From: Syntrophomonas sp. DTU019
GTDB taxonomy: Bacteria; Bacillota; Syntrophomonadia; Syntrophomonadales; Syntrophomonadaceae
Length of the DNA: 64,000 bases
NCBI GenBank assembly: GCA_913757435.1
Contig: CAJYDM010000002.1
Coordinates: 248,001 to 312,000, forward strand
Direction: 5' to 3'
Part shown: piece after piece, positions 3,519 through 57,730 of the stretch
How the letters are laid out: every line of letters starts with the position of its first letter
Numbering within the stretch: position 1 is the stretch's first letter
Notes under the pieces: model-generated
The model's database searches: none
The model's input: the letters and a program-made list of their open reading frames with translations, nothing else
Told to the model about the DNA's origin: nothing
Translations under genes and position numbers: made by a program

Positions 3519-5624
3519 ATGCTGTTAACAAGCGCCAACTATTTCGCCCTACTAATTTATCTATTCATGGCTTTTCATGTCTACCACACCAATCCGCGGG
3601 ATAAACTCAACCGCCTACTCGCGGCGATATGTCTGTTGTTCTTCCATATTGCCTTTGTTGAGCTCCTGGTTATAAACACTGCCGACCCACGAACTGCTTA
3701 TTTTTTTAAGCAGATTCAGCAATTAGGCTGGTTAAACTATCCGGGACTGCTATTGATGATGGCCTTTATTGTGAGCCGCCGAGATTATTTAGTTAATAGT
3801 CTCACCAAGCAAGCAGCTTTATATGTTCCCGGGATAATGCTCAGTCTTTATGAACTGTTTATTAACAATTACGCGCTTCGGGACCATTCGATTACGGGTA
3901 TGATGATCCAAATCGAATATGGATACATCTATTTATACTTGTCTCTTTGTCTGCTTTTGAATCTGGACTGGACTCGAAATACTGATTCGCGGCGGCAAAA
4001 GAAACAATCTTCCATAATCCTCACGTTTGCACTCACAGCGTTCGCTATTGGGGTCTTAAACGACTTGTACTTGAGCAGGCACATCCCCAATTACCCCTGT
4101 TTGAGCCAATTCACCTTTCTTTTAATCATTTTCGCCATATGGTATGCCAGGGTTAAATACCGCTTTATGAGCATTGCTTCCCTTATCACCGCAGAAGATA
4201 TAGTCAGCAAGATCGATGAAATCGTGCTGGTGGTTGATGCCGATGGCTGTATTGTGTACATGAATACTGCTGGGGAGAGTGCCCTGGGCTTTGACAAAGC
4301 TGATATAACCGGGATTTCTATAGACAATATCCTCAATATAGATTTCACTGCAGCCCTTCACGAAACCTTAGGCACATCTATGTTGGTCTGGAAACAGGAA
4401 CTATTTCTCCGCACCTGCCGGGAAATGAGTCTGCCGGTTAAAGTCAGTATCTCAACGATAAAAGATTCCCATGACGACTTGACAGGTTTGTTGCTGATCT
4501 GTCAGGACCAGACCATGGTCAAAGAACTGCAGACGGAAATAAACCAGCGCAAAACCAAGGAGCGCCAGCTCCAATACCTCAGTCTGCATGATTCATTGAC
4601 CGGTCTCTATAATCGCACTTACTTTGAACAGCAGATGAGCCAGGCTAAAGGCCACAAAAGCATCATTGTCTTCGATGTCGATGGTTTAAAACTTATTAAC
4701 GATACTTTTGGTCATGAATGCGGAGACCGTCTTTTGGTCAATGCGGCAACCACCATACATTCCGCCCTGGATAATGGCCTTAGTCTGGCACGTATCGGCG
4801 GTGACGAATTTGCGGTCTTGATTCCCCACAATGATCGGGAACGCATCCACCAGATGGGGTCTGCCGTAAATCGCGCGGTGGAGCAATACAACCAGGCCCA
4901 CCCCCAATTAATGCTAAGCATATCCATGGGTTTCGCGATATCCAGTTCTCCTTTTCAGGATGTCAATGAATTGTACCGCGAAGCCGATGACAATATGTAC
5001 CACGAAAAACTCAACCATATGCAAAGCTTCAGGAGTGGCATGGTACAGGGCATGATGAAGACTTTGGAGGCCCGCGATTTCTTGACTGAAGGACATGCTG
5101 AACGCCTCCGTGAACTGGTTTGGAAAATGGGCAACTACGCCGGGCTGAGAGCCAACATGCTCACCAACCTGCAGCTTCTGGCCAAATTTCACGATATCGG
5201 CAAGGTAGGCATATCTGACCAGATACTGTTTAAACCGGGCAGGCTGACAGACAGCGAAAGGATGGACATGCAGCGCCACAGCGAAATCGGCTACCGCATC
5301 GCGCAATCCATTCCCGAATTGAGCAGCATCTCCGATCTGATCCTCAAGCACCACGAACGCTGGGATGGTACAGGATACCCGCTAGGCATGAAAGGTAAAG
5401 ATATCCCCTTGGAATGCCGTATACTGGCCATAATAGATGCCTACGACGCCATGACCAACGACCGCCCCTATCGTCAGGCCATGCCTGAAGAAGAAGCCCT
5501 GGCTGAAATAGAACGCCACGCTGGTACTCAGTTCGATCCCGTACTAGTTGCCACTTTCCTTAATATGTTGAAAGACTACAGTGAAGGCAAGACCTCAAGG
5601 CCTATCGAGGAAGCCGCACTTTAG
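3519..5624 (+). CDS. membrane PAS-GGDEF-HD-GYP cyclic-di-GMP protein
   Basis: A 701-residue signalling protein carrying both a cyclic-di-GMP synthase and a phosphodiesterase module. About seven hydrophobic segments occupy residues 1-215, resembling the 7TM sensor regions of histidine kinases. A PAS-like domain follows (about 225-350), then a GGDEF domain with intact GGDEF at 427-431 and an HD-GYP domain with HDIGK at 558-562 and HHERWDGTGYP at 611-621. No RxxD product-inhibition site sits five residues before GGDEF. The start is ATG 3519, because AAGGAG precedes it at seven bases; an upstream in-frame ATG at 3444 lacks a ribosome site. Both catalytic motifs look intact, so which activity dominates cannot be read from sequence. 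Confidence 0.92.
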   Translation: MLLTSANYFALLIYLFMAFHVYHTNPRDKLNRLLAAICLLFFHIAFVELLVINTADPRTAYFFKQIQQLGWLNYPGLLLMMAFIVSRRDYLVNSLTKQAALYVPGIMLSLYELFINNYALRDHSITGMMIQIEYGYIYLYLSLCLLLNLDWTRNTDSRRQKKQSSIILTFALTAFAIGVLNDLYLSRHIPNYPCLSQFTFLLIIFAIWYARVKYRFMSIASLITAEDIVSKIDEIVLVVDADGCIVYMNTAGESALGFDKADITGISIDNILNIDFTAALHETLGTSMLVWKQELFLRTCREMSLPVKVSISTIKDSHDDLTGLLLICQDQTMVKELQTEINQRKTKERQLQYLSLHDSLTGLYNRTYFEQQMSQAKGHKSIIVFDVDGLKLINDTFGHECGDRLLVNAATTIHSALDNGLSLARIGGDEFAVLIPHNDRERIHQMGSAVNRAVEQYNQAHPQLMLSISMGFAISSSPFQDVNELYREADDNMYHEKLNHMQSFRSGMVQGMMKTLEARDFLTEGHAERLRELVWKMGNYAGLRANMLTNLQLLAKFHDIGKVGISDQILFKPGRLTDSERMDMQRHSEIGYRIAQSIPELSSISDLILKHHERWDGTGYPLGMKGKDIPLECRILAIIDAYDAMTNDRPYRQAMPEEEALAEIERHAGTQFDPVLVATFLNMLKDYSEGKTSRPIEEAAL

Positions 5625-5829
5625 TATTCCCAACCGATTGAGGACTCTTCCGACCCTGGTCAGCTTATCTAAATCTGATTACACACCTCTGATTCACACC
5701 TTCGCTATCATACGGAGGTGCATCGTCAGAAGGCGTCCGTAAAGGTCCGCTTTTATGTTAACATTAAGGTGCCGCAGAAACCTTGGGGGGTTATTAATAA
5801 GACTTATGACGGGGAGGAGGAATCGTAGG

Positions 5830-6417
5830 ATGGTCATCGGCATCGATATAGACAACACCATTACCCATACCACCGAGATGATCATGCATTATGCCCGGAT
5901 ATTTGGTGCTCGCAAAGGACTAAACACTGTATCCGACCCGCGCTTTTATTATCTGGAAGACGCCCTGGGCTGGGATCAAGCTGTAGCAGATGAGTTTCTG
6001 TTTCAATACCTGGGCCATATCTATCGTGAGATGCGCCCCAAGGAAAAGGCCGTGGAGGTTATCCGTGAGCTGAAAAAGGACCACCACATCATTCTCATAA
6101 CCTCACGCAATCAGCAATATCCTCAAGTAGAGGAGGCCACCTCGGTCTGGCTGAAACAGCATGGTGTGGAATACGACCGGCTTATCCTGAATGCCACCAG
6201 CAATATGCACTATTTCAGCAAGCTGGCGGTATGCCTGGAAAATCAGGTGGACTTGATGATAGAAGACCATCATGACCTGGTCAGTGAAATCAGTGCCCAT
6301 ATGCCGGTATTAATGTTCGATTACCCCTATAACAGCCATCTCAAGGCGGATAACATCATCCGCGTACGACACTGGGAGCATATCCGCCTCTGGGTGCGCT
6401 CATGGCAGCAAGCCTAG
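5830..6417 (+). CDS. HAD-family 5' nucleotidase, NT5C type
   Basis: A 195-residue haloacid-dehalogenase phosphatase resembling the NT5C / deoxy-5'-nucleotidase family. The N-terminal DIDNTIT motif supplies the nucleophile aspartate and acid/base, ILITSRN is motif II, and DLMIEDHHD near residue 150 fits the C-terminal acidic motif. Such enzymes dephosphorylate nucleoside monophosphates; the substrate here is inferred from the family only. The start is ATG 5830, with GGGGAGGAGGAATCGTAGG just upstream. An in-frame ATG at 5755 would add 25 residues and place the ribosome site inside the gene. It stands alone between two other plus-strand genes. Confidence 0.8.
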   Translation: MVIGIDIDNTITHTTEMIMHYARIFGARKGLNTVSDPRFYYLEDALGWDQAVADEFLFQYLGHIYREMRPKEKAVEVIRELKKDHHIILITSRNQQYPQVEEATSVWLKQHGVEYDRLILNATSNMHYFSKLAVCLENQVDLMIEDHHDLVSEISAHMPVLMFDYPYNSHLKADNIIRVRHWEHIRLWVRSWQQA

Positions 6418-6568
6418 CGGTTTATATCCGGGTTGTATCGGCAAACAGATCGTGGTTTCCACGCTTTTGCGGACACCATGGCGGATATTAGGCTTGTAAA
6501 ATATTGGTTAGCAAATCTATAATACAAGTAATTGGTAGGGCCTATGTTTTATTGAAGGAGGTAGAACC

Positions 6569-8209
6569 ATGAGAAAAATCACTGCAGCTATGTTGATCGT
6601 GATGGTGATGCTATTATCCATGCCCGGGATGGCAGCCGCCGCAGAAACCCCCAAACAGGACTTCATTTCTTATTTCACCGCATATTATACTCAATCCATG
6701 CAATTGCAGCAGACCATTTTTGAAGCCATGAACACAGAGACTCTCCATTTCAATGCCAATGCCAACCTCCGGGAATTCGAGATGGTGCAAGATGACGGCA
6801 CCACCATCAGTAACATCCCCGGCAATGGCTCCGTGACTCTGGACTTCAATCTCGCTCAGAGCAAAGGCGCCAGTCATTTCGAGGGCAGCCTTTTCGATAA
6901 GCAGGTTAATGGTCATATTTATATCTCCGGTGATGATATTATCATCCCTCGTGAAACGATTCTGTCACTGAACAATATCGGCGCTGACTTCTCCGAATTG
7001 GGGGATTTAAACCAGCTGCCCGCCTATATTGTCTTTCCCCTGGATATCAGTGCGGATGAAAAATCCGCAATAACTGCGGCCTGGAGTGAGAGTATCGTCT
7101 ATCAGGAACAGCAGATGGCAGTTGCACAGGATCTTGTGGTGGAAATCCTGGAAATCATTCCAGATCGCTGTTACTCTTACAGCGGAGGTTTTGCCGTGCT
7201 GGACCTTCATCAAATCGCCAGGGACCCGGCGCAGCTATTGACTAACCTTAAGAACCACAGCGAAAGTTTAAGCGATAAATTCGCTGCTATCTTGTTAAGC
7301 AATCCCACCCTGAAAAATGATTCCAATTTTCAGTACCAGATTACTCAAAGCAAAAATGAGATAGTGGCCGCAATAAATAGCCTTACTATCGAAGATCTAA
7401 AAGAATTCCAGAAGAATACGCCCATAAACCTGAAACAGGGTAAGGTGTATGCCTCACCTGCCCGCATCAAAGCTGATCTGGATCTGAGCGGAACTTTTGG
7501 AGATGCTGAAATCAGCTTCAACTTGCAGCAAGATACGCGATTGACCTCCAACCAGATGAATTCGCTGCAAAAAGCACAATTATCGGTACATACTGATGAA
7601 TTCAAATTAAATCTGAATCTGTCATCAGAGGGCAGCACCGATTTCAACAAGGTTGCCGGTAAAATGACTCTGTCGGGGCAATGGAACGAGGTAAAAGATA
7701 AGGGTGATGTAAACCAAGCCAGGGCTGTGCTGGATATGGACATGAACCTCGATTGGTCAGGCAAAAACGCTATTAATATTCCACAACTGAACGCCAATAA
7801 CAGCAAAACCGTGCAACCGTCAAACCATCAGGTCAAAAAGCCCGATCAGCCCATACAGGTCGTCCTGGACGGACAGAAAATACCCCTTCAGGGGATCAAT
7901 CCAATTGTATCAAATGGCAGGACCATGCTGCCCGCCGCAGTATTGGCGGATGCATTGGGAGGCAGTGCCTCCTGGCAGCCCCCTGACACAGTCACACTGT
8001 CCAATGGCAGTGCTGATCAGATGGTAATGCGGATCGATTCCACCGAATACACTGTAGGCGATCAGTCATATACCATGGATGCATCTCCTTTTATTCAAGA
8101 AGGCCGCACCTACGTCCCGGTCCGGGTGATAGCTGAATACTTTTCCCTTTCAGTTATGTGGGACCCCGACAACCGTATAATATTCCTTTTTAGTGTTCCC
8201 AACGTATAG
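6569..8209 (+). CDS. secreted protein with C-terminal copper-amine-oxidase-like stalk domain
   Basis: A 546-residue exported protein. A signal peptide is clear (MRKITAAMLIVMVMLLSM followed by AAAAE). The middle part (about 30-410) is a low-similarity region I do not recognise; its alternating amphipathic segments suggest beta-rich folds. The C-terminal 110 residues form a stalk domain: VVLDGQKIPL, then GRTMLPAAVLADALGGSASW, and a repeat of the pattern at GRTYVPVRVIAEYFSLSVMWD. This domain is common on Clostridia cell-surface proteins and does not imply amine-oxidase activity. AAGGAGG precedes the ATG, and a strong hairpin follows the stop. Confidence 0.75.
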   Translation: MRKITAAMLIVMVMLLSMPGMAAAAETPKQDFISYFTAYYTQSMQLQQTIFEAMNTETLHFNANANLREFEMVQDDGTTISNIPGNGSVTLDFNLAQSKGASHFEGSLFDKQVNGHIYISGDDIIIPRETILSLNNIGADFSELGDLNQLPAYIVFPLDISADEKSAITAAWSESIVYQEQQMAVAQDLVVEILEIIPDRCYSYSGGFAVLDLHQIARDPAQLLTNLKNHSESLSDKFAAILLSNPTLKNDSNFQYQITQSKNEIVAAINSLTIEDLKEFQKNTPINLKQGKVYASPARIKADLDLSGTFGDAEISFNLQQDTRLTSNQMNSLQKAQLSVHTDEFKLNLNLSSEGSTDFNKVAGKMTLSGQWNEVKDKGDVNQARAVLDMDMNLDWSGKNAINIPQLNANNSKTVQPSNHQVKKPDQPIQVVLDGQKIPLQGINPIVSNGRTMLPAAVLADALGGSASWQPPDTVTLSNGSADQMVMRIDSTEYTVGDQSYTMDASPFIQEGRTYVPVRVIAEYFSLSVMWDPDNRIIFLFSVPNV

Positions 8210-10170: not shown

Positions 10171-11274
10171 CTAGGCCATTAATTCAGCCATCTGTTCTTC
10201 AGAAGGCTTATTGGGTATGGTGGCGATGGTCTGACCATTGAATTCAAAAATACAGCAGTCTTCATCATTGATTTCGCCAATAACAGCGGCTATACCATTC
10301 TTGGCACGGATAGCGGCCAAAACTTCGTCGACATACTGCGGCTCCACTTGCAGCAGCATACGAGCTTGAGTCTCGCAAATAAACACTTCTTCCGGCGTTA
10401 TAGCCGCATCCTTTACCGGCACCTGATCAAGTTTGACCCGGGCTCCCAGTCCCCCGTATCGAGCTGATTCGCATACCGCCGCCCCTATGCCGGCTGCTCC
10501 CAGGTCAGAACAAGCCTTTATCTTTCCGGTGGCAAATGCTGATAGAGTAGCTTCCATGGTAGTGCGTTCTTCAGCGAATACGGCTACGGCTGGTTGCAGT
10601 ACATCCACCAGGCCGGCCCGATAAAGGGTGTCATTGCCGTCCGTGCCGGTTTCTCCAATAATGATGATTTTATCACCAGCCGACTTGGCTGGTTTAGTAA
10701 GCGGGTGTTGCGTGACCTGTTGGCCGATCACAGCCACCACCACAGCGGGAACGATATCGCTGAAAGAAGTCGAAAAGCCGCCCCCGACCACGAACACCCC
10801 CATGGTTTCACACATCTCAGCCATGCCTTTGAGCATCAGGTTGACCCTGTCCTGGCTGGTCATAACCTCGCAATGCCCGCAGGTGCATTTTCCATCGAAG
10901 CCACAGGGACCCACGATCACTTCCTGCTCCAGAGGGCGGGTGCCGATGAAATCCAAAACGAACAGCGGCCTGGCACCCATTGCCACCACATCCCGCATCG
11001 CTCCTCCGGCTCCGGTAGCAGCCGCGTCATAAGGTCTCGGGACACTAGGAGAACAATGGCTCTCCATTTTTGCAGCAATAAAGCAATCGGTTCCTGGAAT
11101 TTTTACCACCGCAGCATCGTCATTGGCATCTGGGCCCACCAATAAAGCCCCCGGCCAAGTCTGTTCGATTTTCTGATTAAGCTGTTTAAACAGATTAAAA
11201 TCGATAGCTTTGTCAATATTGTGGTGCAGGTGTACAAACAATGCGTGCATGAGCGCCTTTTCAACAGTATTCAT
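10171..11274 (-). CDS. half-length PurL-like (AIR synthase-related) protein with cysteine cluster
   Basis: A 367-residue protein of the PurM/PurL ATP-binding superfamily. GPDANDDAAVVKI matches the nucleotide-binding N-terminal motif, and ESHCSPSVPRPYDAAATGAGGAMRDVVAMGARPL closely follows the PurL motif (ESHNHPS...GAATGxGGxxRD), with Asn changed to Cys. A C-terminal AIRS_C-like half follows (GDKIIIIGETGTDGND, CSDLGAAGIGAAV). Full PurL is about twice as long with two such repeats. An unusual cluster C124-x5-C130-x-C132-x2-C135 suggests a bound metal or iron-sulphur centre. The start ATG 11274 has GGAGG upstream. No purine gene is nearby, so I do not call it a purine enzyme. Confidence 0.7.
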   Translation of the reverse strand: MNTVEKALMHALFVHLHHNIDKAIDFNLFKQLNQKIEQTWPGALLVGPDANDDAAVVKIPGTDCFIAAKMESHCSPSVPRPYDAAATGAGGAMRDVVAMGARPLFVLDFIGTRPLEQEVIVGPCGFDGKCTCGHCEVMTSQDRVNLMLKGMAEMCETMGVFVVGGGFSTSFSDIVPAVVVAVIGQQVTQHPLTKPAKSAGDKIIIIGETGTDGNDTLYRAGLVDVLQPAVAVFAEERTTMEATLSAFATGKIKACSDLGAAGIGAAVCESARYGGLGARVKLDQVPVKDAAITPEEVFICETQARMLLQVEPQYVDEVLAAIRAKNGIAAVIGEINDEDCCIFEFNGQTIATIPNKPSEEQMAELMA

Positions 11275-11443
11275 TCTTAAATGCCTCCGTTCTAATTGCT
11301 TTGATGACCTTACTATTATTTGTTGTTTAGCTAAATTAATCCTTGCTGACACACTATATTATAATATCAAACTTTGTTGAATCAATATAAAATACAAGAA
11401 TACAATTCGACAGAGCGAACATTATCATAGGGCTTCCTCAAAC

Positions 11444-13248: not shown

Positions 13249-14352
13249 TTACATTCTTGCAAGAAGATTGTTCAATTTAACCATTCCTTGTTCGGGGTCC
13301 AAGTTCTGAGCTGCCACCCACTGTTTCAGCTTTTGCAGCGCAAGTCCGCTATAGACCATATCACGAGCTATTTGCAGGCTTGCAGCGATAGTACTGTCAG
13401 GTGTGCCGACATAGATTACCAATGCGGCGTTCAAACAAGCGATATCAGTCCGGGGGCCGTTTTCAAGACCCGCAATTACGCGCAAGAATTGCAGTACTTC
13501 CTGTTCTCGGTCGGCATGGGGAGCGATATCCTCGAGGCCCGCCCGTCTAATGCCATATTCTTCCGGAAAGAAACCGTATTCGCGAATGGAGCCGTCTGGA
13601 TGCAATTCCGCCACCAGAGTCTCTCCTATAGTCGATGCTTCATCCATGCCCCGCTCTCCGCTGGAATCCAATCCATGCACCACCACCGCACGCTGGTATC
13701 CGATCTCGTTCATCACCTGGGCTACCGGGTTCAATAATGCCCGATCGTAGACGCCCCGAACGCCAATCCGGGGCAGGGCAGGGTTGGCCAGGGATGCCGC
13801 AATGTTGAGCACTGTGCCAAAGGCTATCTGTGATAGTATTCTTCCCAGACCTTGGTGTATATAAGGACTCATGCCGTTAAAAATACCTATACCGGCTGTT
13901 TCAATACTGTGCTTCACCAGGGCTGGTGGCCCTTCAACATCAATACCCAGACTCTCTAAGAGGTCGATCGTGCCGCAACTGGAGGTAATAGCGCGGCTGC
14001 CATGCTTGGCCATTACCACCCCGGCGGCCGCTGCTATTATTGCAGCTGCCGTACTGATATTAAATGTTTTCATACTGTCCATCCCGGTGCCGCAATTTTC
14101 AACCACATGGCTGCCGACATCCAAAACGATTTTACAGGTGTCGTATTCATATATCGCTTCCCATATCCCGGCAATTTCCTCCGCAGTCTCGCCCTTTGCA
14201 GCCAATGCGCTCAAAAACGCTCCCTGCTGCAGGGCAGATTGCTTATCTAAAATCACCTCAGCAAACAAGGCTTTGGACCGTTCCCGCGACTGATCTACCT
14301 GATTGATTAACTCAGTTATAGTCCTTCCAAATTCCTGGGCACACAATGACAT
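13249..14352 (-). CDS. TrpD-like phosphoribosyltransferase (anthranilate phosphoribosyltransferase family)
   Basis: A 367-residue homologue of TrpD, which joins anthranilate to PRPP. Family motifs are present: NCGTGMDSMKTFNIST matches the PRPP loop (usual GTGGD reads GTGMD), AKHGSRAITSSCG matches KHGNRxxSS, and VVHGLDSSGERGMDEAS keeps the acidic metal-binding pair. No other tryptophan gene is nearby. It is the second gene of an operon led by a zinc dehydrogenase and a cobalamin riboswitch, so a substrate other than anthranilate, perhaps linked to cobamides, is possible; this is inference. ATG 14352 follows GGGAGGTAATGCG, whose ribosome site overlaps the end of the upstream gene, suggesting coupled translation. 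Confidence 0.8.
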   Translation of the reverse strand: MSLCAQEFGRTITELINQVDQSRERSKALFAEVILDKQSALQQGAFLSALAAKGETAEEIAGIWEAIYEYDTCKIVLDVGSHVVENCGTGMDSMKTFNISTAAAIIAAAAGVVMAKHGSRAITSSCGTIDLLESLGIDVEGPPALVKHSIETAGIGIFNGMSPYIHQGLGRILSQIAFGTVLNIAASLANPALPRIGVRGVYDRALLNPVAQVMNEIGYQRAVVVHGLDSSGERGMDEASTIGETLVAELHPDGSIREYGFFPEEYGIRRAGLEDIAPHADREQEVLQFLRVIAGLENGPRTDIACLNAALVIYVGTPDSTIAASLQIARDMVYSGLALQKLKQWVAAQNLDPEQGMVKLNNLLARM

Positions 14353-14358
14353 TTCGCA

Positions 14359-15417
14359 TTACCTCCCTTTCTTCATATACAGCACTATTTTCATTTCCTT
14401 CCCCAAAGCTATCAAATCCAACCCTTGTTGCAGTTCACCCAATGCAATGCGTCTAGTGATCAGGTCTTTGACCGTCACATCGCCTCCATTTATCAACTGC
14501 ATTGCAGATTGATTGTGTTTTGCGGAACAACCGTATGCACCAACAACGGTCAGTTCCAGGTAGTGAATCAAATTCCACTCTGTATTGGCAATGTCAGGGC
14601 AGGGGGTCAATCCACTAAAAAATCCGATACGGCCCCGCTTCGCACATACTTTCAGTGATTCCCTAAAGGCTTCCGGATTGGGACAGCAAGGAATAACCAC
14701 ATCCGCCTGGCCTCGTTTTGTGACTGCTGCCAATATTTCCAAAAGGTCTTTTAAGTCAGCGGCCAAAAGGCATTGGTTTTCCAAACCCTCTAAAAGCCTC
14801 ATCCTATCAGGTTGTGGCTCGACTATGATGATATCTTTAGCCCCCCGGCTTCTGGCCAAACGGGCGTTCAAAACACCCAGGGGGCCGCCCCCCCAAATCA
14901 GAACTACATCCCCATCACCAATATGCAGGGCATCCTGCATATTTATGGCGCATGCCAGGGGTTCCGTCATACAAGCTTCTTCAAAAGACAAACCGGTAGG
15001 GATGTAATTAAGTACGCCAGTTTTTACCGCTGCAGCGGGTATGTGCAGATACTCCTGAAACCCGCCATCTCTATGAAAGCCCATGATTTTCACCCGATCG
15101 CACAGGTGATCAAAGCCCTGTTTGCAAAAACGGCATCTGCCACAGGATATTCCCGGAGCCACCTGCACTCTGTCGCCAATACAAAAGCCGGTCTGCTGCT
15201 GGCTGGCGTCAAGCACTGTGGCGGTGATTTCATGCCCCAATACCCGGGGAAGCCTGAGATCCCGTTGTCCGACAGTATAGGCTTTCATATCGGTGCGACA
15301 TAGGCCGCACACTTCTACGGCCAGTAACACATCCCCCTTTTGACATCGAGGTTGCGGACGTTCTTCAATCCTTATCTTGCCTATGTTCTCTAAAACTGCA
15401 GCCTTAATATTAAACAC
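14359..15417 (-). CDS. zinc-dependent medium-chain alcohol dehydrogenase family protein
   Basis: A 352-residue medium-chain dehydrogenase/reductase. CGLCRTDM and GHE give the catalytic zinc site, CGRCRFCKQGFDHLC the four-cysteine structural zinc loop, and VLIWGGGPLGVLNA the NAD(P)-binding Rossmann loop. It resembles the threonine/sorbitol dehydrogenase branch; the substrate is unknown. The first codon appears to be GTG 15417, although the AGGGGG ribosome site is unusually close to it; a non-standard start a few codons later cannot be excluded. A cobalamin riboswitch and its terminator sit immediately upstream, so expression should fall when cobalamin is abundant. The TrpD-like gene follows after six bases. 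Confidence 0.85.
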   Translation of the reverse strand: MFNIKAAVLENIGKIRIEERPQPRCQKGDVLLAVEVCGLCRTDMKAYTVGQRDLRLPRVLGHEITATVLDASQQQTGFCIGDRVQVAPGISCGRCRFCKQGFDHLCDRVKIMGFHRDGGFQEYLHIPAAAVKTGVLNYIPTGLSFEEACMTEPLACAINMQDALHIGDGDVVLIWGGGPLGVLNARLARSRGAKDIIIVEPQPDRMRLLEGLENQCLLAADLKDLLEILAAVTKRGQADVVIPCCPNPEAFRESLKVCAKRGRIGFFSGLTPCPDIANTEWNLIHYLELTVVGAYGCSAKHNQSAMQLINGGDVTVKDLITRRIALGELQQGLDLIALGKEMKIVLYMKKGR

Positions 15418-15422
15418 CCCCT

Positions 15423-15459
15423 AAAAAAATAAAGTCCATACCTTAAAAAGGTATGGACT
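15423..15459 (-). terminator. riboswitch-controlled terminator
   Basis: On the minus strand AGTCCATACC pairs perfectly with GGTATGGACT and is followed by TTATTTTTTT. It lies between the cobalamin aptamer and the dehydrogenase start, so it is the expression platform that would stop transcription when the ligand is bound. Confidence 0.9.
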
Positions 15460-15499
15460 CTCCAATTCCCTACCAGGTTAAAACCGAAAGGTTTCAACC

Positions 15500-15662
15500 T
15501 TCAAGCTACAGGCAGGTCTCCTGACTCAGCTTCTTCACCGATGCGCCCCTTCCCCCTTGCGGAGTGGTTTATGGCCTGGCTCAGCTTTACAGTGGCGGGC
15601 CCGTCCGGGAATTGCACCCGGTTCCCTATTCTCCCTATTGGGCACCTGTAACCCTGAAAGAC
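15500..15662 (-). promoter_or_regulatory. cobalamin (B12) riboswitch
   Basis: Read on the minus strand, the leader contains the conserved aptamer core: GGTGCAATTCCCGGACGGGC, GCCACTGT, and the B12 box AGTCAGGAGACCTGCCTG. Between the aptamer and the terminator lies a further hairpin (GGTTGAAACC pairing with GGTTTTAACC, about 15474-15500), a candidate antiterminator component. The riboswitch controls the zinc dehydrogenase and TrpD-like genes. No cobalamin biosynthesis or transport gene is present in the window. Confidence 0.95.
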
Positions 15663-15754
15663 TATATTTTATGGTTTATACTAGGTGTAATTCAAGGCTT
15701 TGTCAAGTATTATCTATGGCTCTGTCTTATTTAATGACTGCCGAGCTACAACGG

Positions 15755-50740: not shown

Positions 50741-50942
50741 AAAAACCCCACCGAGCCGTGGGCAACCGTTGTTTAAACCTGCTACGCAGGTGGGTACCCT
50801 CCCACATGATTAATGTTTCCCATCTTAAACGGGCTTACAGCCACATATGGAGATCAGGTTCCCTAATTTTTGGTGTTGGCAAAAACTAAACGGCTGTTCT
50901 CACGCACACAGCAGGGATAATTGATTACTAGTATCTCTCGTT
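50741..50942 (-). ncRNA. ssrS: 6S RNA
   Basis: The 200-base gap between aspS and tcdA reads on the minus strand as a long, mostly paired RNA. It has a good promoter, a 5' part beginning about AACGAGAGATACTAG, and ends in CCCAC-GGCTCG-GTGGG followed by TTTTT. The 5' and 3' portions can form a long irregular stem with a central open region, as in 6S RNA, which binds RNA polymerase. Length (about 200) and position (downstream of aspS, upstream of a yrvM-like gene) match Bacillus 6S-1. Internal pairs include ACCTGC/GCAGGT and a GCTGT/ACAGC arm. The call rests on synteny and shape, not on an alignment. Confidence 0.72.
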
Positions 50943-57263: not shown

Positions 57264-57300
57264 GAAAACAAACAAACCTCTCTCCACCAGGGACGAGAGG
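57264..57300 (-). terminator. T-box terminator 2
   Basis: CCTCTC pairs with GAGAGG and is followed by TTTGTTTGTTTT on the minus strand, directly after the canonical T-box sequence and about 130 bases before aroF. Confidence 0.85.
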
Positions 57301-57382
57301 CGAACTTCCCGCGGTACCACCCAATTTGCCATAAGGCCGCTTTAGCTATCAGGATACAGGATCTGTAGAGCAGGCTGGAAAT

Positions 57383-57416
57383 AAAAAGGCTTCACATCCT
57401 CATGGGACGTGAAGTC
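57383..57416 (-). terminator. T-box terminator 1
   Basis: CTTCAC-x-TCC pairs with GG(G)A-x-GTGAAG and is followed by CCTTTTTATTT on the minus strand, just after the first, degenerate T-box sequence. Confidence 0.75.
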
Positions 57417-57730
57417 TGGTGCTTACACGCTATACCACCCAATAATGGTTCAGGGCCTGCTTAAAGGATACAGGTTTAATCCGATATCCCCCCTCTTTTA
57501 ACGGCAAGGGCTCCGCCTCGACCTACTTGCATATGTTTCAGCCGGGTGCTCCTAAGTGAACTTCAATCTGCTTCCTCATAAGGATGCTTGCAGCCGGTGG
57601 CATCCTCTCTCTGTCTGATTTCCCAGACCTACTTTACTTATTCACAGCATTTAAATTATTGATATCGCAATAATAGCATAATGCTCACGGCCTGTAAAGG
57701 CCAGGACGGGCTAAAATTATTAATTATCAC

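Follow-up and report, generated by a model that had tools for sequence, protein, structure and literature searches.

A cobalamin riboswitch, a zinc dehydrogenase and a TrpD-like phosphoribosyltransferase in Syntrophomonas sp. DTU019: a putative cobamide lower-ligand module linked to CobT

The window analyzed here, a stretch of 64,000 nucleotides from Syntrophomonas sp. DTU019 (contig CAJYDM010000002.1), carries a cobalamin riboswitch followed by two genes, which encode a zinc-dependent medium-chain dehydrogenase (hereafter ADH) and a phosphoribosyltransferase resembling TrpD, the anthranilate phosphoribosyltransferase (AnPRT). All elements lie on the minus strand, in the order promoter-like site, aptamer, terminator, ADH gene and TrpD-like gene (Table 1), with the promoter-like site immediately 5' of the aptamer and 6 bases between the two genes. 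The aptamer, at 101.9 bits, passes the RF00174 gathering score of 31.5 (E 2.4e-24) and spans the whole model, while the terminator consists of a 14-bp stem followed by ATTTTTTT, its 54-nt stretch having a folding energy of -20.6 kcal/mol (z = -5.2). The initial annotation had described a complete B12 aptamer, a strong terminator and two closely spaced genes, and all three are borne out; the terminator architecture fits transcriptional control of the pair by the riboswitch.

Table 1. Elements of the riboswitch-controlled locus, in window coordinates.
Feature	Position	Strand	Basis
Promoter-like site, sigma-70-type, TTGACA-17-TAGTAT	15678..15706	-	Consensus scan, 10/12; consensus match only
Cobalamin riboswitch aptamer RF00174	15494..15664	-	cmscan, 101.9 bits, full model 1-189
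Intrinsic terminator, expression platform	15431..15461	-	14-bp stem and U-run; directly 5' of the ADH start
ADH, zinc-dependent medium-chain dehydrogenase, 352 aa	14359..15417	-	Pfam ADH_N and ADH_zinc_N
TrpD-like phosphoribosyltransferase, GTGMD subfamily, 367 aa	13249..14352	-	Pfam Glycos_trans_3N and Glycos_transf_3

We then focused on the TrpD-like protein, which scores 257.6 bits against the TIGR01245 trpD model (cut-off 199.05), and whose AlphaFold model adopts the AnPRT fold with a mean predicted local distance difference test (pLDDT) value of 92. Its nearest named relative comes from Syntrophomonas sp. UBA4922, with 80% identity. An alignment of 84 members of its subfamily with 26 true TrpD proteins revealed a consistent set of differences. 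The GTGMD motif pointed out in the initial annotation, found at residues 88-92, is present in 84/84 subfamily members, whereas the same column holds Gly in 26/26 true TrpDs, so that the GTGGD signature is absent from the subfamily. Moreover, Leu173 replaces the helix-8 Arg that binds the anthranilate carboxylate, and Ala or Ser at position 119 replaces the Asn of KHGN, again in all 84 members, and the subfamily carries a two-residue NG insertion (GIFNGMS). The site for phosphoribosyl pyrophosphate (PRPP) and Mg2+ is kept, with invariant G88-T89-G90-D92, T96-F97-N98, S100 and D237-E238 (GTGxD, FNIS and the Asp-Glu pair). In characterized enzymes, the helix-8 Arg (Arg193 in M. tuberculosis, Arg164 in S. 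solfataricus) and the KHGN Asn bind the anthranilate carboxylate (PMC9835598, PMC5537072), and R193 substitutions lower anthranilate use by the M. tuberculosis enzyme (PMC9835598), of which an R193L variant is available as PDB 4x5b/4x5c. We therefore infer, strongly though not conclusively, that the acceptor of the TrpD-like protein is not anthranilate; the reservation arises because R171, two residues from Leu173, is invariant in the subfamily and could still hold an acidic acceptor in another way.

Phylogeny agrees with the residues. In a maximum-likelihood tree of 26 true TrpDs, all from Bacillota, against 71 subfamily members and outliers, a 100/100 branch sets the true TrpDs apart, and the protein of the window falls outside their clade. 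Two deeper-branching ADH-TrpD pairs (L191 of genome G499, 4348-6453, and L197 of G723, 3599-5847) carry GTGSD instead of GTGMD, at 36-38% identity, and are sister to the main GTGMD subfamily; they may belong to a related system that yields a different product.

Regarding its partner, ADH has the zinc ligands and the ADH_N and ADH_zinc_N domains of a zinc-dependent medium-chain dehydrogenase/reductase (MDR), and in 79 aligned ADHs with a TrpD-like partner the zinc and NAD residues are conserved (C40, H62-E63, C92/C95/C98/C106 and G176-x-G178-xx-G181). Its best NCBIfam matches are L-threonine 3-dehydrogenases, far under the cut-offs (176.7 vs 458.35 and 180.9 vs 380 bits). Since its homologues start at MKAAVLE, the annotated GTG start may not be the true one.

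To place the pair in its genomic context, it is helpful to consider the host genome (3.2 Mb in 17 contigs), which has four cobalamin riboswitches. One of them precedes the ADH/TrpD-like pair, a second lies ahead of an anaerobic corrin operon, among whose genes cbiA, cbiD, cbiE, cbiG, cbiC, cobU, cobQ, cbiB, cobD and cbiM were identified, and a third is found upstream of cobT. The remaining one (G000:C2:4110-4292) lies just 5' of a gene (L117:253-3942, minus strand) whose 1229-aa S-layer-homology product contains several DUF4430 domains; DUF4430 resembles transcobalamin domains, and the protein may therefore bind cobamides at the cell surface. Beside a pseudouridine synthase gene, the genome also encodes a second CobT homologue, short (about 303 aa) and divergent (L139:5892-6800; G000:C2:630969-631775); it scores 209 bits, under the TIGR03160 cut-off, and G003, where a stop interrupts it, and G005 have comparable copies. 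Searches of the host genome, made family by family and in stretches, for homologues of BzaA, BzaB, BzaF and ThiC found none. In the congener G003, a tandem pair of cobalamin riboswitches stands ahead of a bza operon (L133:5656-6386, plus strand). With respect to tryptophan, a search of the host genome for a second TrpD found none, which leaves the TrpD-like protein as its only TrpD homologue, and the sole trace of trpC is a remnant of 45 residues (G000:C8:27504-27638), which matches the intact trpC of a congener's trp operon at 71% identity. The initial annotation had noted no tryptophan gene nearby, and this holds genome-wide. The trp operon has been lost from this genome; therefore, tryptophan synthesis is not the reason for which this organism retains the TrpD-like gene.

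A single scan of 84,980 species genomes yielded 103 relatives; 80 of them were retained. These come from Bacillota, Chloroflexota (Dehalococcoidia), Omnitrophota, Desulfobacterium and metagenome-assembled genomes labelled Aquificota, and, among the archaea, from Methanothrix, ANME-1 (Methanophagales), Methanomassiliicoccales and Syntrophoarchaeum. One ADH family is present in 77 loci, almost always adjoining the TrpD-like gene. Counting bacterial loci, a cobalamin riboswitch lies 5' of the pair in 42/52 (25/30 in the first bacterial set, 7/8 in further Bacillota, 9/13 in Desulfobacterota, and the window itself), covering Bacillota, Chloroflexota, Actinomycetota and Desulfobacterota; several of the loci lacking one are contig ends or genes within longer operons. 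The association is thus not private to this genome. In one genome (G376, L130/L149), a TAA breaks the TrpD-like frame while riboswitch and ADH are intact, and that copy is possibly decaying.

The neighborhood of the pair links it to cobamide synthesis genes. CobT adjoins the pair in two types: an archaeal one (a cluster of 19, representative at 312 bits to TIGR00303) and a bacterial one (a cluster of 9, representative at 450 bits to TIGR03160). In many Methanothrix loci the archaeal CobT gene is directly 5' of that for ADH, often with a 4-base overlap, and the bacterial type neighbors the pair in loci of ANME-1, Syntrophoarchaeum and Dehalococcoidales, whereas in Omnitrophota it belongs to the same operon as the pair. 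Gene orders include cobU-cobT-cobS-cobD-cobQ-cbiB-ADH-TrpD-like-btuF-btuC-btuD (L055, Omnitrophota), ADH-TrpD-like-cobT-cobS-cobD-cbiB (L196), and riboswitch-ADH-TrpD-like-bzaA-bzaB-cobT followed by genes for an energy-coupling factor (ECF) S component and an AIRS protein (L148). In addition, BLAST identified 11 Desulfobacterota loci in which ADH and CobT form a single polypeptide of about 700 aa, encoded beside the TrpD-like gene; Pfam confirmed the fusion in L045 (ADH_N at 33-132, DBI_PRT at 373-709, 428.8 bits), and it occurs in Desulfobacteraceae, among them Desulfobacterium autotrophicum. In L188, a second cobalamin riboswitch (7601-7789, plus strand) lies directly 3' of ADH-TrpD-like-CobT, ahead of a 669-aa gene.

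Several genomes have more than one CobT. Nine Desulfobacterota genomes have one CobT fused to ADH and a second directly beside a ThiC-like gene, taken as BzaF on the basis of this adjacency to cobT, given that TIGR04386 cannot tell ThiC from BzaF. G086 and G502 have the fused CobT only, their sole ThiC-like gene not adjoining cobT, and in five Bacillota genomes a bzaAB operon holds one CobT and a second lies at a different site. Most simply, each base source would have a CobT of its own, and the pair would itself be a base source. Since CobT is present in all bacterial carriers tested, the pair does not act as a CobT replacement.

Co-occurrence was evaluated in 398 evenly sampled Bacillota genomes. 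CbiB is present in 11/11 carriers of the TrpD-like subfamily as compared to 216/398 genomes overall (hypergeometric p about 0.001); the pair tracks cobamide synthesis. BzaB-type matches over the cut-off were found in 2/11 carriers and in 34/398 genomes of the sample, most of the latter being cobamide producers, and the pair and BzaAB are for this reason roughly independent. An enrichment of bza genes among carriers, suggested by hand-picked genomes, was accordingly dropped. A role of the pair as a replacement for Bza was likewise rejected, as some carriers have BzaAB, others BzaF-type genes, and others again neither of the two.

Altogether, these results suggest that the pair is a cobamide-repressed nucleotide-loop (lower-ligand) module acting just before or together with CobT, and not a tryptophan enzyme, a reading drawn from sequence comparison to which we give a probability of roughly 0.6. 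Its parts differ in strength: a nucleotide-loop role in company with CobT is very probable, the supply of a particular base, as opposed to a donor or linker step, is an even bet, and 5-methylbenzimidazole as that base is doubtful. The initial annotation had proposed that the TrpD-like enzyme phosphoribosylates a non-anthranilate base, perhaps a cobamide lower ligand; phylogeny, residues, operons, fusion and riboswitch argue strongly for the non-anthranilate character and for the lower-ligand link, while the phosphoribosylation of the base itself keeps the standing of a proposal. Mechanistically, when cobamide is scarce the terminator would not form and the pair would be expressed. The TrpD-like protein, its PRPP/Mg2+ site kept and its acceptor pocket reshaped, would then move phosphoribose between PRPP and a neutral partner that is either aromatic or an azole, and ADH, dependent on NAD and zinc, would carry out the oxidation of an intermediate. 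The end product, for which a particular lower-ligand base is the likeliest candidate, would be passed to CobT to give the alpha-ribotide.

Some observations weigh against a lower-ligand module. The subfamily is rare (11/398 Bacillota genomes), and co-occurrence with BzaB does not point to the base. Acetobacterium and Eubacterium carry the pair though they have bza genes for benzimidazoles, and because of this the pair is not a simple replacement for Bza. Furthermore, TrpD chemistry gives a beta-linked ribotide, while cobamides need an alpha-ribotide; therefore, the TrpD-like protein alone cannot replace CobT.

Among the alternatives, the one that fares best is that the pair provides CobT with a phosphoribosyl donor and not with a base, either as a ribotide other than nicotinate mononucleotide (NaMN) or as NaMN regenerated from the nicotinate that CobT releases, with ADH tuning the leaving group. 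The retained PRPP site would suit such a role, as would the tight coupling and fusion to CobT whatever the base type, and the fact that some carriers, the host of the window included, have no known Bza-type base-synthesis gene. Still, an NAD-dependent zinc dehydrogenase would have no obvious role in it, most CbiB-bearing genomes do without the pair, and where a carrier has two CobTs, one of them adjoins Bza and lacks the pair, which makes this explanation unlikely. Less probable again is a role of the pair in building a different portion of the nucleotide loop, for instance the aminopropanol linker, with the TrpD-like protein as an accessory in an unrelated role. The resemblance of ADH to L-threonine 3-dehydrogenase, albeit far under the cut-off, and the presence of cbiB and cobD beside the pair in some operons speak for it. 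Against it, the fusion partner is CobT, neither CbiB nor CobD, linker synthesis offers no evident task for a phosphoribosyltransferase, and the usual linker route exists, because CobD is found in the host genome and in several carrier operons.

The initial annotation had also raised the possibility of a B12-independent route. The pair would then act, as metE does, as a substitute enzyme induced by cobamide shortage. Cobalamin riboswitches that repress B12-independent isozymes are indeed known. Yet the pair tracks cobamide synthesis, with CbiB always present in the Bacillota sample, it is co-operonic with cobamide synthesis genes (L055, L148, L196) and fused to CobT, and it is also found in cobamide-dependent methanogens, so that we reject this explanation as very improbable. 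As for a genuine AnPRT for tryptophan, a TIGR01245 score over the cut-off, the AnPRT fold and its position as the sole TrpD homologue of the host are outweighed by the separate clade (100/100), the replaced anthranilate-contact residues (84/84), the lost trp operon and the presence of both a true TrpD and a TrpD-like protein in the relatives G003, G005 and G056, and the idea was rejected as extremely improbable.

If the lower-ligand module supplies a base, 5-methylbenzimidazole is a candidate. We know of no biosynthetic route to it. A 5-methylbenzimidazole cobamide has reportedly been described in Desulfobacterium autotrophicum, in a paper of 1988, and the same base is said to have been reported in Methanothrix soehngenii by Kohler (1988). 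Both the Methanothrix and the Desulfobacterium lineages carry the pair, and this coincidence is the sole pointer to a given product, which we regard as doubtful. The base is among the listed natural lower ligands (PMC8123684) and is not among the reported products of the known Bza pathway, namely 5-hydroxybenzimidazole (5-OHBza), 5-methoxybenzimidazole (5-OMeBza), 5-methoxy-6-methylbenzimidazole (5-OMe-6-MeBza) and 5,6-dimethylbenzimidazole (DMB) (PMC6461909). The pair might even represent a third route to benzimidazoles, independent of the O2 used by BluB and of the ThiC-like Bza enzymes, with 5-methylbenzimidazole as its product, loaded by the adjacent or fused CobT, although we regard this as a speculative and rather improbable extension. 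In such a scheme, the TrpD-like protein would attach the ribose of PRPP to an aromatic o-diamine; ring closure on C1' would be followed by oxidation of the ring by ADH with NAD+; and C1'-C2' cleavage would then make C1' the C2 atom of the base, in the manner of BluB. The scheme needs one PRPP transferase and one NAD dehydrogenase, and is chemically sensible but unproven.

Which cobamide a microbe can use depends on the lower ligand. Of the predicted bacterial cobamide producers, 42% lack any known gene for benzimidazole synthesis or phenolic attachment (PMC6461909). A conserved, cobamide-regulated and CobT-fused module, found in anaerobic bacteria and in methanogenic and methane-oxidizing archaea, is a candidate for part of this gap. 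As a marker, it would allow cobamide type to be predicted from genome sequences; it could also account for orphan bases like 5-methylbenzimidazole, and would correct the likely wrong annotation of subfamily members as 'anthranilate phosphoribosyltransferase'. We found no earlier description of a TrpD/ADH cobamide pair in the open-access literature, most of the subscription literature lying outside this search, and the lower-ligand module has probably not been recognized previously. Elsewhere in the window, we observed a 393-aa AIRS/PurL-like protein that reaches no NCBIfam cut-off (10171-11352), as well as a 6S RNA (50741-50920) and a T-box leader (57286-57654), both over their gathering scores; all three are on the minus strand.

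The pair can finally be compared with the closest known systems. With TrpD (TIGR01245) the TrpD-like protein shares the fold, the PRPP/Mg2+ site and, probably, the chemistry on PRPP, as well as about 30-38% identity and a score over the hidden Markov model cut-off; it differs in GTGMD versus GTGGD, in KHG[AS]R versus KHGNR, in a Leu for the carboxylate-binding Arg and in the NG insertion, and its subfamily forms a clade of its own, lacks trp context and is tied to CobT and to cobalamin riboswitches. Similarly, ADH shares the MDR fold, the catalytic and structural zinc residues and the NAD-binding glycines with L-threonine 3-dehydrogenase and other zinc-dependent MDR dehydrogenases, but it stays at 176.7 against the tdh cut-off of 458, is associated with CobT, and has TDxK where tdh has TDxH. 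The Bza pathway (BzaF, or BzaAB with BzaC/D/E, and a dedicated CobT) resembles the pair in being a cobalamin-regulated lower-ligand supply beside cobT, and in one genome both modules share an operon (L148); its ThiC-like enzymes, however, act on 5-aminoimidazole ribotide (AIR) and are unrelated to the TrpD-like protein and ADH. BluB is O2-dependent and consumes flavin, whereas the carriers of the pair are mostly anaerobes. Nevertheless, the BluB-CobT fusion of Actinobacteria (PMC8123684), in which a lower-ligand enzyme is joined to CobT, provides a precedent for the ADH-CobT fusion.

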